A stretch of DNA of 64,000 bases, from assembly GCF_014697545.1 (NCBI RefSeq), contig NZ_JACJSA010000001.1:682001-746000 (forward strand), given 5' to 3'. A program made the translations under genes and the position numbers. Under the pieces are notes generated by a model. It did not search any database, was not told the DNA's origin, and saw only the letters and a list, made by a program, of their open reading frames with translations. Each line of letters starts with the position of its first letter. Within the stretch, counting starts at the first letter, position 1. Shown piece after piece: positions 4,764 to 64,000 of the stretch. This DNA comes from Oscillatoria sp. FACHB-1407 (GTDB lineage Bacteria > Cyanobacteriota > Cyanobacteriia > Elainellales > Elainellaceae).

Positions 4764-5786
4764 TTACAAGCTGTCGATAAACTTTTGCACCTTTTGAGCC
4801 AGGGGCATATAGTCAATCTGTTTGACGACGCCCTGAGCTTCCTCATAGAGAGCTTTTGCCAAACTGTTCAGGTCAGTTGCAGCGTATACACTACCCATAT
4901 TGAGCAGCGTCATCACCTCACCGGGGCGATCGCCCAATTTGCGGTAGATGGTAAGTGCCTGGTTGTAATATTCCAAAGCTTGAGCGTGGTTATCAAGCGC
5001 ATTGTAGGTAAATCCGATGTTATGTAGTGTTGTTGCTTCACCGGCGCGATCGCCCGTTGCACGACGATTCAAAAGTACCTGGTGATAGAGCAATAACGCT
5101 TGTTGTGGTTCGCCTAGATCACAGTAAACAGAGGCAATATTGTTCATGGTGATCGCCTCGCCTGTCACGTTTTTAACCACTCGCTGAATGGTCAACGCTT
5201 CCTGAAAAAACGCCAGTGCCTGTTCGGGTTGACCCAACGCATTATAGGTGTAACCAATACTGTTCAGCGTAGTCGCCTCACCTGAAAAATCACCCAGGGT
5301 GCGACGCATTGATAGAATCTGATGGTGAATCAATAGAGCGCGTTTTGGCTCCTCTAGCTTGGTATAAACTAGAGCCAAATTGTTGAGTGCAGATAACTCT
5401 CCAGAGGTGTCATTTAGCTCTCTAAAAATATCAATTGCTGCGTTTAAGTGTTCCATTGAACGCGACAATTGCCCCAGATGATTATAAGTGAAACCCAGAT
5501 TGCTACGAGCAGTGGCGATCGCCTGTTGATTCTCTATCTTTTCAGCAATAAATAGAGCTTGATGGAAAAACTTCAGTGCCTTTTGAGGTTGTTGACAACT
5601 GATATAAGCTAGACCGATATCGTTTAATACGTTCCCTTCTTTTGCAAAATCCTGAAGTTCTCTCGCTAACTTCAGATTCTCTCTAGAGAGAGTCAGATAT
5701 TGTTTGAATTCTCCCCGTCGGTAGTGATTTCTTGCCTCACTACGACGTTGATTCCATTCCTGCAAGGGGCTTGTAAGGTGAGTCAT
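4764..5786 (-). CDS. TPR-repeat protein (seven 40-residue units)
   Basis: A 340-residue protein with no signal peptide or membrane segment, so probably cytoplasmic. After about 50 charged N-terminal residues it is built almost wholly of seven 40-residue units of the NPHP3/kinesin-light-chain type, each ending near 'GD-R' and restarting with 'GEATTLN-IG-TYNALG'. Such arrays bind peptides or partner proteins. It is divergent from the TPR-CHAT gene across 457 bp, and the unit sequences of the two proteins are alike, so they may share ancestry or act together; that is inference. HIP1 octamers encode several of the GDR turns. Confidence 0.85.
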   Translation of the reverse strand: MTHLTSPLQEWNQRRSEARNHYRRGEFKQYLTLSRENLKLARELQDFAKEGNVLNDIGLAYISCQQPQKALKFFHQALFIAEKIENQQAIATARSNLGFTYNHLGQLSRSMEHLNAAIDIFRELNDTSGELSALNNLALVYTKLEEPKRALLIHHQILSMRRTLGDFSGEATTLNSIGYTYNALGQPEQALAFFQEALTIQRVVKNVTGEAITMNNIASVYCDLGEPQQALLLYHQVLLNRRATGDRAGEATTLHNIGFTYNALDNHAQALEYYNQALTIYRKLGDRPGEVMTLLNMGSVYAATDLNSLAKALYEEAQGVVKQIDYMPLAQKVQKFIDSL

Positions 5787-6243
5787 TGCTTGCTGAACTT
5801 TCTCTAGATTGCGTGATAGGTTGGAACTATGAATTAATGGCTAGCATACCCAAGACTCGACCCCATACATCAGGTTCTATCCTTAGGTACATGACTTCTG
5901 TTAAGAATACGCCAATTTATGACACAAATATCAAATCAGTGTCAAACTTCGTGGAATTATTATTTCTCTATTTGGAAACAAATCTAAAGAAAAATTGGCT
6001 GCAAAAACTAATTTTTTATGGGTGGTTTTATTCTCTAAAGAATTCAGTTGTAAGACTCTTTAGTTCCTTAGAACAGTAATTTATTTTTTGATAGTAATTA
6101 CAATATTGCCGCGCGGCTGCCAGTCAGATTTGCAACACCTAATTGAGCTAACCAGCAGAAATCGTTTTTATTCTCCTTGCATAACTCGTACGAGCCAGGA
6201 AGTATAGTACTGGCAAGAACCTTGCCGTGGAGAATCAGTACGC
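5787..6243. other. Divergent promoter region between TPR and TPR-CHAT genes
   Basis: This 457-bp AT-rich region must hold the promoters of both flanking genes. The ten-base palindrome CTCGTACGAG (6185-6194) lies 50 bases before the CHAT start, with TATAGT at 6203-6208 as a possible -10 box. Both are weak by themselves. A 97-codon frame on the plus strand (5786-6079) has no recognisable product and is not called. Confidence 0.4.
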
Positions 6244-9054
6244 ATGCGATCGCCCCTCTCCGCTTCATTCCTGATTTTGTTGACTAGTACCACTTCCATG
6301 GTGGGAGTGATGAGTGATTGGAGTAATGCTGTTGCACTTGCCCAAACAAACCTTGATGCCCAACCTACTTATCAAGTCGGTCAAGTTGTTGAGGTGCTAT
6401 GGGAGCAAAGTTGGTGGGTTGCCAGAGTACTGCGAATTGAAGGAAATCAATATTGCATTACCTATGAAGGATGGGATAGTGCCTGGGATGAGTGTGTAGG
6501 CTCTGAACGGATTCGGAGTGTGGCAGATGCGGAAACGTTGCAAGCTCTGGGTGCAGAAGCGGGTCGATTGCATGAGCAGAGCCTTGAGCAACTGAATCGG
6601 AGCGAGTTTCAAGCCGCGTTGCAATCGTCTCAACGAGCACTGGAGATTTATCGCCAGATCGGTAACCGCATGGGTGAAGGAATCATGCTCAGTAACCTGG
6701 GGCAGGTTTACGACACGATGGGTCAATATCCACAAGCATTAGAGTCTTACCAACAAGCTCTATCAACCCATCGCGATATTAGTAATCGTTCTGGAGAGAG
6801 TAATGCTTTGAATGGAATTGGTTTGGTGTATAGCAGCTTAGGGCAATATCCACAAGCATTAGAGTTTTATCAACAAGCATTGGTGATTAACCAACATCTG
6901 GGTAATCGCAGCGGTGAAGCAACCAATCTCAATAATATTGGTTCAGTGTATGACAACCTGGGGCAATATCCGCGAGCATTGGAATACTATCAACAGTCAT
7001 TGACGATTAGCTATGACCTAGGCGATCGCGAGAGTGAAGCTACTAGTCTCAACAATTTTGGTTTGTTATACAACAACTTAGGACAATCTGTACGGGCGTT
7101 GGATTATTATCAACAAGCGTTGACCATCAACCGAGATTTAGGCGATCGCACAAGTGAAGCAACTAACCTCAACAATATTGGAGCCGTCTACGCTGCTCTT
7201 GGTGACTACTCACAGGCACTAGAGCAATTTCAGCAGGTGCTGGTGATTCGGCAAGAGGTGGGCGATCGCGCCCAAGAAGGGACGGCACTCAATAACATTG
7301 GCTTTGTTTACCAGAAATTAAACCAGGAAGCACAAGCATTGGAGGTTTATCAACGTGCTTTAGCGATCGCGCGTGAGATTGGGAATCGCAGAGGAGAATC
7401 TATAACTCTTGGCAACATTGGCAAGCTTTACTTCAGCCAAGGGCAATATTCACAGGCACTTGAGGCTTATCAACAAGCACTACCGATAGCACAAGAAACG
7501 GGTTATCGAGTTGCAGAGGGACGCATTTTAGACAACTTAGGTGAGCTATTAGCGGCACAAAACCAACTGGAATTAGCGATTGTCTCTCTCAAACAGTCAG
7601 TCAATGTTTGGGAAACGATTCGAGGAGAGTTGCGATCGCTATCTACTGAGCAACAGCAAGCCTTTACCGATCAAGTTGCAGATACCTATCGTGAACTTGC
7701 TGCTTTGTTGTTACAGCAAGATCGGGTATTAGAAGCACAGGAAGTATTAGATTTACTCAAACTGCAAGAGTTAGAGGATTACCTTCACAATATCGAAAGG
7801 AATGAGCAGATCTCTCAAGGCATCTATTTGTGGGATGCGGAGGTTCAGATTATCGAGCAGTATCAACAAGCGATCGCACAAGGGCAAGCGATCGCTACGG
7901 TTGCAAACAGCATTGAAGTGGATTCTCGTGTCGCAGAGTTGCAGCGGATTGCACGAGAACAACGGGTTCCTGAAAACTTGCTGACTAAACTACAAGACAA
8001 TCTGCGTCAACTCGATCGCCCCGCGGCACTACTGTATCCGTTAATTCTAGAAGACCGTTTAGAGGTCGTTGTTGTTCTGCCCAACTCACCCCCTGTGCGT
8101 CACACGGTTGCTGTCACTCAACCGGAGTTAGAAACAGCGATTAGAGACTTTCGGCAATATTTGACCCAACGGACTAACAGACGCATGGCTCCTGCCCAAC
8201 AGCTTTACGACTGGTTGATTCGTCCTATTGCGGCAGATCTGCACCAAGCGGGAGTCGAGACCTTGTTGTATGCCGCAGATGGGCAGTTGCGTTACATTCC
8301 GTTAGCCGCTTTGCACGATGGAGAACAGTGGTTAGTCGAGCGATTTACCATCAATCAAATCACCGCTGCATCCTTGACCAACTTTGAGTCATCGCGTGAA
8401 CCTAATCTGCGGGTCTTGGCCGGAGCCTACAGCGATCGCCAACTCGTTTACGAGTTTGCCATTGGCGATCGGCAATTTGCGTTTAATGGTCTGGAGTTTG
8501 CTGGCTCTGAAGTGGAGGCGATCGCATCCACTATTCCTCAAACGACGACTTTTCTCAATCGTGACTTTAGCCGCGCCAAAGTCGAACCTCAACTGGAGGA
8601 TTACACAGTTATCCACCTTGCCACCCATGCTGAGTTTGTTAGGGGTGTTCCAGAGGAGTCCTTTATTTTGTTTGGCAATGGCGATCGCTTGTCGTTGCGT
8701 GAGTTATCAGGCTTATCGCTGCCCAACGTTGATTTAGTTGTTTTGAGTGCGTGTCGAACGGCAGTTAGTGGAGAGTTGGGTAATGGCGAAGAGCTCTTGG
8801 GATTTGGCTATCAGATGCAACAAACGGGGGCAGACGCGGCGATCGCCTCCCTCTGGTATGTCAACGATGGCGGAACTCAGATGCTAATGACAGCATTTTA
8901 TGCCGCGTTACAACAGGGAATGAGTGAGGCAGATGCTTTGCGACAGGCACAAATGACTTTAATTAATAGCGATTCTGAATCAGCATCAACAACTCAACGA
9001 TTAACCCATCCCTACTATTGGGCACCGTTTATCCTAATTGGCAATGGCTTATAA
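6244..9054 (+). CDS. Secreted Tudor-like/TPR/CHAT protein
   Basis: 936 residues; the start ATG overlaps a HIP1 octamer. A signal peptide (about 1-34, cleavage after VALAQ) directs export. Residues 40-95 form a Tudor/Agenet-like barrel (VGQVVEVLWEQSWWVARVL). About nine 40-residue TPR units follow to about 455, then a helical linker and a C-terminal CHAT domain. CHAT is a caspase-like peptidase fold; its histidine (HLATHAEF) and cysteine (VVLSACRTA) motifs are both intact, so it may be an active cysteine peptidase. Known CHAT proteins are often activated by partner binding to the TPRs. Its target is unknown. It ends two bases from the convergent gene for an unknown secreted protein. Confidence 0.88.
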   Translation: MRSPLSASFLILLTSTTSMVGVMSDWSNAVALAQTNLDAQPTYQVGQVVEVLWEQSWWVARVLRIEGNQYCITYEGWDSAWDECVGSERIRSVADAETLQALGAEAGRLHEQSLEQLNRSEFQAALQSSQRALEIYRQIGNRMGEGIMLSNLGQVYDTMGQYPQALESYQQALSTHRDISNRSGESNALNGIGLVYSSLGQYPQALEFYQQALVINQHLGNRSGEATNLNNIGSVYDNLGQYPRALEYYQQSLTISYDLGDRESEATSLNNFGLLYNNLGQSVRALDYYQQALTINRDLGDRTSEATNLNNIGAVYAALGDYSQALEQFQQVLVIRQEVGDRAQEGTALNNIGFVYQKLNQEAQALEVYQRALAIAREIGNRRGESITLGNIGKLYFSQGQYSQALEAYQQALPIAQETGYRVAEGRILDNLGELLAAQNQLELAIVSLKQSVNVWETIRGELRSLSTEQQQAFTDQVADTYRELAALLLQQDRVLEAQEVLDLLKLQELEDYLHNIERNEQISQGIYLWDAEVQIIEQYQQAIAQGQAIATVANSIEVDSRVAELQRIAREQRVPENLLTKLQDNLRQLDRPAALLYPLILEDRLEVVVVLPNSPPVRHTVAVTQPELETAIRDFRQYLTQRTNRRMAPAQQLYDWLIRPIAADLHQAGVETLLYAADGQLRYIPLAALHDGEQWLVERFTINQITAASLTNFESSREPNLRVLAGAYSDRQLVYEFAIGDRQFAFNGLEFAGSEVEAIASTIPQTTTFLNRDFSRAKVEPQLEDYTVIHLATHAEFVRGVPEESFILFGNGDRLSLRELSGLSLPNVDLVVLSACRTAVSGELGNGEELLGFGYQMQQTGADAAIASLWYVNDGGTQMLMTAFYAALQQGMSEADALRQAQMTLINSDSESASTTQRLTHPYYWAPFILIGNGL

Positions 9055-9056
9055 AT

Positions 9057-9839
9057 CTATTGCTGTCCACAATAGCGGACGGTTTCCTCAATCAACTGCT
9101 GTTCCCGCCCTGCTGCATTCACGATGGCATTGTAAGCGCGATCGGCAGCTTCAAAATCCTGTTCGCTTGCCGACTCAATTAAGTTGCGAGAGGCATCGCT
9201 CATCGTGGAATAGGTTGAGATGAATTGTTGTTTTAACCCCTGTAAACGTCCATCCGTGATGCGCAAGCGTTCCATTGTGGACGAGGTGCGATCGACAATG
9301 CTAAACAACTGCACAAAGGGAGCCGGATCACCGGGAGTCGCCGTTTGAGCAATCGCTTGTGCTTCAGTTCCAGCTTGGCTGATCAGACCAGCCAACATCA
9401 TACATTCGTCGGTTCGAGCAATACCAACGGGCATGTCGAGCAATTCTGGAAACGCCATAATTTCTCGTGACCAATCAAATCGGGGTTGATACCGACGAGT
9501 TGAGGTAGGAGTAGGAGTGGTATTTGCCACAGCACGTGCTGTTGAACAGTTGGCAATGTTGGGAGAGGCTCCCGTATCGCGCCAAATTTCAACCTGACGA
9601 CGAAAGCTGACTAATTCGCTGCGGTAGGCAGGTGAGGTTTGCGATGAGCCAATCAGGGGGTCGATCGCCTCTAATGCTTCGTTCCAGTTGTTTTGACAGA
9701 CGGCGTCTCGCAGGTTGGCTTGCAGTTCATTATCACTCACCTGCGTAGTAGTGGTTTGAGCATGAACGGGCACCGCTGCAAACGTGAGAGGCAGGGCCAG
9801 GGCGATCGCACGGAGGCTTTTAAGCATAGTAGTCAGCAT
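9057..9839 (-). CDS. Secreted protein of unknown function
   Basis: 260 residues. The first 28 form a signal peptide with a clear AxA site (VPVHAQ). The mature part has four cysteines (DAVCQNN, IANCST, DECMML, VRYCGQQ), which could form disulfides in the periplasm, a Thr/Pro-rich linker around residue 110 and long amphipathic helices at the end. No family was recognised. Start choice is open: ATG 9839 or ATG 9827, four codons in; neither has a clear ribosome site. It is convergent with the CHAT gene, stops two bases apart, and shares strand with the DUF2141 gene. Confidence 0.7.
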   Translation of the reverse strand: MLTTMLKSLRAIALALPLTFAAVPVHAQTTTTQVSDNELQANLRDAVCQNNWNEALEAIDPLIGSSQTSPAYRSELVSFRRQVEIWRDTGASPNIANCSTARAVANTTPTPTSTRRYQPRFDWSREIMAFPELLDMPVGIARTDECMMLAGLISQAGTEAQAIAQTATPGDPAPFVQLFSIVDRTSSTMERLRITDGRLQGLKQQFISTYSTMSDASRNLIESASEQDFEAADRAYNAIVNAAGREQQLIEETVRYCGQQ

Positions 9840-62791: not shown

Positions 62792-64000
62792 CTACTGCCA
62801 GTTGCCTACTAACACCACTGGACTCCAGAAATAGGGTCGGCGGTATTGCGGGTTTTGCAACAGAAACAGTTGCGCCTGACGCAGTGCTTCGGCTTTAGTT
62901 ACCTTTCCAGTTGCCAGTTCCTGGTAGAACCGCTCCATGATCAGTGAGGCTGCCTGGTCATCAAACGACCAGAGCGTTGCCACCGTGCTACGGGCACCTG
63001 CTCGTACAGCTACGCCTGCCAGACCTAACGCGGCGCGATCGTCCCCCTCAGCGGTTTTGCAGGCACTCAACACCAGCAACTCAATCGGGCGACGACGACT
63101 GACATCGGTGGCTTGTAGCAAGGTGCTCAACTGTTGGATATTGATGCGATTTTGCCAGGTGAGAATGAACGTTTCCTCTGGTTGAGAACTGAATTCACCA
63201 TGCGTTGCCAGATGCACGATGGGATAGGGCACCTGATTAATGGCAGTCTGAAAATTTTCGGTGGTAAAGTCCTGGTTGAGCAGGATTTGGGATTCTGGAA
63301 GTTTGGTGCTAATGGCTTGAAACTCAGTAATCACGCCTGGTAACTCTGGAAAATTTTGCTGTGCCTCACTCACCCCTGCCATCAAAACATTTAATTGCTG
63401 CGTCTGAATGGATTGTGCTTCGAGCAGTTGCAAGCCTGGAGTCAGGGCGATCGCGTAATCTTCAACCAGATATCGCTCGCCATCAAATAGGGCTGCCATC
63501 GGAATGTTTCGCAGTGCCCCATCTGGGACAAACACCAGCGTTTTAGCACCACTGGCTTTTAGCTCATCGGCAACCGGACGAATCAACCAGTCATAGACCT
63601 GCTGAGCCAAGGGTTGGGCACGGCGAGCCGCTGTTGCCTGTCGCAGATATTGCCGCAACTCATTGACAGTCGCTTCCACCTGACTGGATGGAATGGTCGT
63701 CGTATAGTGGCGCAAGGGCGTGACTGGAGCCTGTTCAACTTGCTGTTTAGGGTGGGCACTAACCAGAGCAGCCTGATCTGCCACTCCCGCAGGCAAACTG
63801 AGAATAACCTCCAGGCGATCGCTCAGAATAATCGGGTAGATCACTGCTGCTTGCCGATCAACCTCATCAATATCAACTTGTCGAGCATTCAGGCAGGCTT
63901 CTCGAAAGAAGTTGTCCAACTCTGCCAATTGCAGCGACTCAATCGTTTTACGGGCTTGTTCGAGTTCCGCCTGTGTCGGTTCCACGCCAGGTTGCAGCAA
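62792..64000 (-). CDS. CHAT-domain protein, N-terminus beyond window edge
   Basis: 402 residues of the C-terminal part; the frame is open through the right edge. It contains a helical linker and a complete CHAT peptidase-like domain with the histidine block 'PIVHLATHGEFSSQPEE' and the cysteine block 'LLVLSACKTAEGDDRAALG', then 'GARSTVATLWSFDDQAAS' and the normal end 'PYFWSPVVLVGNW'. The missing N-terminus probably holds TPRs like the 6.2 kb protein, with which it shares the linker words 'QQVYDWLIRPVADEL'. It is convergent with the GTPase gene, six bases apart. Confidence 0.88.
   Translation of the reverse strand: MLQPGVEPTQAELEQARKTIESLQLAELDNFFREACLNARQVDIDEVDRQAAVIYPIILSDRLEVILSLPAGVADQAALVSAHPKQQVEQAPVTPLRHYTTTIPSSQVEATVNELRQYLRQATAARRAQPLAQQVYDWLIRPVADELKASGAKTLVFVPDGALRNIPMAALFDGERYLVEDYAIALTPGLQLLEAQSIQTQQLNVLMAGVSEAQQNFPELPGVITEFQAISTKLPESQILLNQDFTTENFQTAINQVPYPIVHLATHGEFSSQPEETFILTWQNRINIQQLSTLLQATDVSRRRPIELLVLSACKTAEGDDRAALGLAGVAVRAGARSTVATLWSFDDQAASLIMERFYQELATGKVTKAEALRQAQLFLLQNPQYRRPYFWSPVVLVGNWQ

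Follow-up and report, generated by a model that had tools for sequence, protein, structure and literature searches.

A predicted chromo-barrel joined to tetratricopeptide repeats and a CHAT domain in Oscillatoria sp. FACHB-1407

Chromatin "reader" modules bind methylated histones, and the locus described here raises the question of what such a module may be doing on a bacterial protein with a signal-peptide-like start and a peptidase-like domain. The locus lies in a stretch of 64,000 nucleotides of the cyanobacterium Oscillatoria sp. FACHB-1407 (NCBI RefSeq assembly GCF_014697545.1, contig NZ_JACJSA010000001.1, positions 682,001 to 746,000 of the forward strand), which we call the window and whose own numbering is used below. 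Its central gene encodes the 936-residue window protein, in which a chromo-barrel and tetratricopeptide repeats (TPRs) stand in front of a CHAT domain. An earlier reading of the sequence (the original prediction) had described a secreted Tudor-like/TPR/CHAT protein and had proposed that it acts together with the genes on either side. We suggest, with about as much belief as doubt, that the window protein is an exported TPR-CHAT cysteine protease whose barrel would position or license it where the envelope carries a modified amine. The features of the gene are:

6244-9054, plus strand: open reading frame (ORF) of the window protein, 936 residues, with signal-peptide-like start, chromo-barrel, TPRs and CHAT
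6244-6342, plus strand: signal-peptide-like N-terminus, ending at residue 33 with ALA before Q, the cleavage site judged by eye
6370-6522, plus strand: chromo-barrel, residues 43-93
6415-6417, 6463-6465, 6472-6474 and 6484-6486, plus strand: codons of the cage aromatics W58, Y74, W77 and W81
6454-6456, plus strand: codon of Cys71, the first Cys of the barrel pair
6493-6495, plus strand: codon of Cys84, the second Cys of the barrel pair, a position that is Trp in 144/149 barrels
6547-7497, plus strand: TPR region, about residues 102-418, in 40-residue units
8188-9045, plus strand: CHAT domain (PF12770), residues 649-934
8626-8628, plus strand: codon of the predicted catalytic His795, motif HLATHA
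8752-8754, plus strand: codon of the predicted catalytic Cys837, motif LSACRT

Taken singly, the barrel sequence gave a match below the cut-off to the Pfam family PF22732 MSL3_chromo-like (E 0.004). A profile built on eight bacterial barrels (A1) matched yeast Eaf3 at E 1e-10, followed by the MBT, MRG and PHF20L1 readers. An AlphaFold2 model made with 149 barrels as input reached a predicted local distance difference test (pLDDT) score of 83.9, with core blocks at 90-94; these 149 segments, used for all barrel statistics here, remained once four kinds of entry had been taken out, namely copies more than 90% alike, matches shorter than 39 residues, sequences interrupted by an X or a stop, and duplicate loci of the window. 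A Foldseek search with the model returned the chromodomains of MRG701, MRG15 and MRG2 (E from 3e-4), and on MRG2 (4pl6, VIA) it superposed with Z 9.8 and a root-mean-square deviation of 0.8 A over 53 residues. Because the profile matches Eaf3 and the model superposes on MRG chromodomains, the domain is, on its modelled fold, an SH3-like chromo-barrel of the Royal family; the original prediction was right to see a Tudor/Agenet-like barrel, for which "chromo-barrel" is the more precise label. Aligned by HMMER, the last three cage positions are Y, W and W in Eaf3, and its first is a Tyr that lies where the alignment is very weak (2 bits); the Eaf3 residues equivalent to W58, Y74, W77 and W81 form its cage. 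The window barrel keeps all four aromatics, as do 111/149 barrels, a count of four positions where the scheme of Kaur 2018 has a fifth.

The TPR region was recognised by Pfam (PF13424, TPR_12, E 1.5e-76; six TPR_12 and eight TPR_10 stretches, where the original prediction had counted nine repeats), and its periodicity of 40 residues is visible in the repeat units. Inside its coding region a 120-bp tandem array was seen (6817-7181; 3 copies, 72% matches), and TPR units could expand through recombination. The CHAT domain, claimed as intact by the original prediction, matches PF12770 at E 1.1e-67 and 229 bits (cut-off 24) and has both members of the dyad, His795 and Cys837. In homologues the catalytic residues, whose loss would have spoken against the original prediction, are retained: both are invariant in 29/29 aligned CHAT domains, and His795 also in 15/15 of a smaller alignment. 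The model of residues 591-936 (pLDDT 90.5, predicted template modelling score 0.91) resembles Csx29 (Z 25.5, 3.3 A over 303 residues, 13% identity) and separase (Z 24.0 over 294 residues), followed by DdvA (Z 20.1), gingipains (about 18) and caspases (about 11.7). A phmmer search of residues 520-936 against the PDB returned no chain up to E 10; with the 29-row CHAT profile the best PDB match was DdvA (8rot, 1.9e-8), and the Craspase TPR-CHAT was also matched (2.6e-5). Profile, dyad and modelled fold agree in making this CHAT a clan CD domain of the caspase/separase fold and a putative protease. Such domains are numerous, as CHAT matches were present in 56/60 genomes searched, the own genome included, which has 24. 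Within the window a further CHAT-like ORF was recognised by eye at 62792-64000 on the minus strand (motifs HLATHGEF and LSACKTA), running past the window end.

Signal peptides were called by a crude home-made rule. It was positive for the window protein and for the 260-residue protein encoded next to it, both of which the original prediction had called secreted; the same rule was positive in 25/106 background ORFs, some of which are perhaps truly exported. At eight loci of close CHAT relatives, 8/10 CHAT-bearing ORFs start in a signal-peptide-like manner by this rule. The two exceptions are a 461-residue ORF (L053) and, at L055, the CHAT-bearing half of a split gene, the TPR half of which was positive. 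This gene (L055:4400-7008) is a split or frame-shifted CHAT paralogue in the own genome, with overlapping ORFs in different frames, one of 501 residues with the TPRs and a signal-peptide-like start and one of 368 residues with the CHAT domain. Judged from such N-termini, many close relatives export a TPR-CHAT protein, and the window protein is probably exported.

In the relatives that have no barrel, the place of the barrel is either taken by something else or left without an evident domain. In three of them (L049, L052 and L054) the part homologous to the window protein begins directly behind the barrel, at residue 104-105, and in others it begins later; a PPC domain stands in front in 3/3 checked by Pfam (L049, L050 and L054), and in some no domain was evident at this position by eye. 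These sequence comparisons show the predicted barrel to be a swappable module, lying behind the signal-peptide-like start and ahead of the TPRs. Its distribution is sporadic, with 22/386 genomes of a phylum sample carrying it and 15/388 genomes of the class by a narrower profile (A2), whose listed matches lay in open frames of 25-460 residues, except the window's own at 948 (read from the table). Genomes of 84,980 species, scanned with one 10-residue pattern by which divergent barrels can be missed, yielded 76 loci encoding a barrel relative. One of these, in Okeania sp. SIO3B5 (L062, 983 residues), encodes three barrels, TPRs and a CHAT domain (E 2.1e-69). The original prediction had called a Tudor-like domain on an exported CHAT protein unusual, and indeed this is the single further case located; viral contigs yielded no further barrel-CHAT protein when scanned, nor did plasmids, among which one Deinococcus agenet protein was found.

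Among 101 distinct barrel ORFs from the 76 loci and the phylum scan, 37 were small (at most 210 residues, mostly tandem-barrel proteins), 30 were of caspase type, a tag given by a home-made profile built on 10 of the same proteins, 32 were other, one was the Okeania CHAT+TPR protein and one came from the window itself (truncated by the limits of its locus). When Pfam was run on 62 of the 63 longer barrel proteins, the window's excluded, one with X left out and the 37 small ones outside the scan, 29 matched Peptidase_C14 and one matched CHAT. In the 30 caspase-type ORFs the barrels are mostly multiple, two or three being present in 24, and the last lies at most 60 residues from the C-terminus in 26. 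Four caspase-type proteins with C-terminal tandem chromo-barrels (L035, L036, L123 and L156) were negative by the signal-peptide rule, and L035 and L036 retain the GHG and DCC motifs. A Nostoc-type family of about 437 residues (MDKSIIQLVDELP...), present in many cyanobacteria (L142-L148, L151, L153, L157 and L034; for example L142:1498-2805), likewise ends in tandem chromo-barrels and shows no signal peptide to the eye, which differs from the published view that bacterial chromo-like domains are consistently found in secreted proteins. Since some cyanobacterial barrel proteins have no signal peptide, such barrels need not always act extracellularly.

The two barrel-CHAT proteins do not have closely related CHAT domains. 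In a tree of 29 rows the CHAT of the window protein and that of Okeania lie in opposite halves, each supported at 100/100, and a tree forcing them together was rejected, with a p value of 2.95e-44 in the approximately unbiased test (p-AU); the rows had been picked as near relatives of these two CHATs, and therefore the tree shows the distance between them and not their place among all CHATs. As far as the sequences tell, the same combination of barrel, TPRs and CHAT is present on two CHAT backbones. Downstream of the Okeania gene four tandem 233-bp units were observed (L062:7214-8107), each with the same kind of 64-residue ORF; three are near-identical (0, 3 and 2 differences) and one has diverged (34).

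The Okeania protein has a further trait in common with the window protein. Columns 71 and 84 are both Cys in 4/149 barrels, namely the window barrel and the three of Okeania, and neither column is Cys in the other 145. The window protein holds three cysteines in all (71, 84 and 837), while the Okeania protein has six in its barrels and the catalytic Cys896. In barrel-less relatives, past the first 20 residues, 7/8 have the catalytic Cys alone and L050 has two extra, a pattern to be expected for an oxidising compartment. As these near-Cys-free proteins keep the barrel pair in both the window and Okeania, a Cys71-Cys84 disulfide is likely from the sequences. In a tree of barrels a branch with SH-aLRT 93 separates the four CHAT-linked ones from the rest. 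A free search made with both Cys columns removed did not group them, though a tree forcing them together on the same columns was 25 log units better and was not rejected (p-AU 0.73). Common descent of the four thus leans on the Cys columns and lacks independent support, and they may be alike by convergence.

Chromo-like domains on bacterial peptidases have been described before. Kaur 2018 reports, in the available text, that chromo-like domains of secreted bacterial proteins have an aromatic cage and are commonly fused to caspase-like peptidases and also to TPRs; it predicts that they bind methylated-lysine-like groups in murein or matrix, and it proposes them as the stock from which chromatin-type reader barrels descended (PMC5906684). 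These proteins, found in cyanobacteria among others, resemble the window protein in joining a barrel and cage to a clan CD cysteine peptidase; the available main text mentions CHAT 0 times, whereas the peptidase of the window protein is CHAT (PMC5906684). The window barrel is also single, N-terminal and provided with a private Cys pair, in contrast to the mostly multiple barrels near the C-terminus of the caspase-type proteins. Among the titles and abstract starts listed by a literature search, none joined CHAT with a chromo, Tudor or Agenet barrel. What was already known is therefore the chromo-like domain on caspases, and what is new is the same putative reader on a second clan CD candidate protease, the TPR-CHAT.

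Several known proteins offer partial parallels. In Craspase, the dyad H585/C627 of the TPR-CHAT becomes accessible upon activation, and C627 is required to cleave Csx30 (PMC9729208). Csx29 is like the window protein in having TPRs before CHAT, a His-Cys dyad and the same fold (Z 25.5, as above); it differs in being the partner of a CRISPR effector (PMC9729208), the window protein having a signal-peptide-like start, a barrel and only 13% identity to it in the structural alignment. HetF of Anabaena is a cyanobacterial CHAT and TPR protein and a putative protease that cannot function without its active site; its CHAT region is N-terminal (antibody to residues 1-555), and it has a transmembrane segment and TPRs, with no barrel mentioned in the available text (PMC8406250). 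DdvA (PDB 8rot), in which His and Cys are kept in the alignment with the window's CHAT, is named a transmembrane anti-sigma factor, unlike the window protein, and is likened to it here by the CHAT domain alone. The chromo-barrels of MRG15, MRG2, Eaf3 and MSL3, which act in the nucleus, share fold and cage positions with the window barrel; they are histone readers with no protease, and Eaf3 keeps Trp where the window has Cys84.

It was originally proposed that the divergent TPR protein regulates the CHAT protease and that the 260-residue protein is its target or inhibitor. The ORF coordinates and the divergent and convergent layout are as that proposal described them in the ORF listing:

4764-5786, minus strand: ORF of the TPR-only protein, 340 residues, a conserved gene
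9057-9839, minus strand: ORF of the 260-residue secreted protein, modules pN and pC

The TPR-only gene is divergent from the CHAT gene with a gap of 457 bp, and the 260-residue gene converges on it with a gap of 2 bases (9055-9056). Promoter-like sites (9 vs 6.5 +/- 2.7 in shuffles) and terminator-like sites (2 vs 4.3 +/- 2.4) were uninformative. The TPR-only protein has orthologues in 11 relatives (50-58% identity, nearly full length), and profiles for CHAT, barrel, pN and pC found none of these genes in the 11 loci; the matches of the window protein there fall on the TPR genes themselves. Likewise, no TPR-only, pN or pC gene was present at the eight close-CHAT loci, of which the own genome holds two, or at the Okeania locus. 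The comparison is limited in that all these neighbourhoods cover 5.9-19 kb and some of the genes are close to where a contig stops. No CHAT gene was found at 36 loci with pN or pC relatives, 29 of which are short (about 2-3.6 kb), while 3/7 longer ones re-cover short ones.

The 260-residue protein has the four cysteines that had been noted (C48, C98, C146 and C257), and these belong to two orphan modules, where a target or inhibitor had been proposed. Counted module by module, the pair C48/C98 is conserved in 12/12 segments of pN (about residues 25-115) and the pair C146/C257 in 23/23 of pC (about residues 140-258, lipoprotein-type). In the relatives read pN and pC are separate proteins, pN at times in tandem and pC often with a lipobox-like start. 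Both appear to be secreted modules widespread in relatives (window 9057-9839, loci L002-L030), a match to either part being present in 58/98 genomes, own included. Pfam and NCBIfam gave nothing above cut-off in the 260-residue protein or six scanned relatives; weak rows below threshold included PPC and FDP_fam on the relative L013 and LIC11966 on L230.

A unit of the three genes would have in its favour that they adjoin in the window and that substrates of CHAT proteases are said, in the available text, to be commonly encoded nearby (PMC9729208). Against it, the partners are kept in 0/11 TPR-only loci and 0/8 close-CHAT loci (nor at the Okeania locus), CHAT is found in 0/36 mostly short pN/pC loci, and the TPR-only protein is negative by the crude signal-peptide rule and would therefore be in another compartment than the window protein. 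We rejected the unit on this neighbourhood evidence. The missing co-conservation largely refutes it, leaving it highly improbable, and both the TPR-only gene and the 260-residue gene are judged to be bystanders to the CHAT gene.

There remains the window protein itself, as a candidate protease licensed by its barrel. The barrel would have been inserted between the signal peptide and the TPRs of a many-copy cyanobacterial TPR-CHAT type; in the periplasm, cell wall or sheath its aromatic cage would bind a peptide whose amino group is methylated or cationic in some other way; ligand binding would tether or switch the enzyme; and the TPRs would keep CHAT inactive until a partner binds. The elements used here (architecture, folds, cage residues, intact dyad and modular swap) are borne out by the comparisons and predicted models given above, while export, ligand, proteolysis and TPR gating would follow from them by inference. 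Several observations weigh against this account. The barrel is present in 2/36 genomes of the order and on CHAT in the own genome only, and Okeania is the sole CHAT fusion in the 75/76 loci with a readable barrel ORF (L105 being unreadable). The export call comes from the crude rule, and the Okeania barrel-CHAT protein fails it, having a Lys inside its hydrophobic stretch. The near-invariant barrel Trp is Cys84 in the window protein, and so ligand binding may differ. We know of no established ligand of bacterial secreted chromo-like domains, and the ligand class would be borrowed by analogy from what eukaryotic readers bind and from what Kaur 2018 predicted.

The same cysteine also suggests that the barrel may be no reader of methyl-amines and may instead be a disulfide-stapled structural element or an SH3-like anchor binding cell wall or polymer, for only the two CHAT fusions have, in place of the near-invariant Trp84, a Cys that is paired with Cys71, and secreted bacterial SH3 relatives likely bind peptidoglycan peptides (PMC5906684, section 8, in the available text). 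We regard an anchor as somewhat unlikely, the four cage aromatics being retained in the window and all four positions being aromatic in 111/149 barrels. It is more doubtful that CHAT is a signalling or scaffold domain and not a protease, as may hold for the anti-sigma factor DdvA. That protein is the best PDB profile match (E 1.9e-8, Z 20.1), and genomes have many CHAT paralogues; yet the dyad is invariant in 29/29, the catalytic Cys is the sole Cys past residue 20 in 7/8 relatives, and DdvA too keeps His and Cys in the alignment, a parallel that is in any case weak because the literature search gave no paper on the function of the DdvA CHAT. Quite improbable, finally, is control of the protease by a redox-gated reader, in which oxidised Cys71/Cys84 would shape or close the cage and could exchange with Cys837, proteolysis would need both ligand and the periplasmic thiol state, and the module would have moved whole onto two unrelated CHAT backbones.

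If the barrel does position or license an exported TPR-CHAT protease, its pairing with CHAT in two CHAT lineages suggests a link of methyl-amine-type reading with extracellular caspase-fold proteolysis. With just three cysteines, the window protein would be an expressible object for a direct test of the ligand and of the link between reader and protease.

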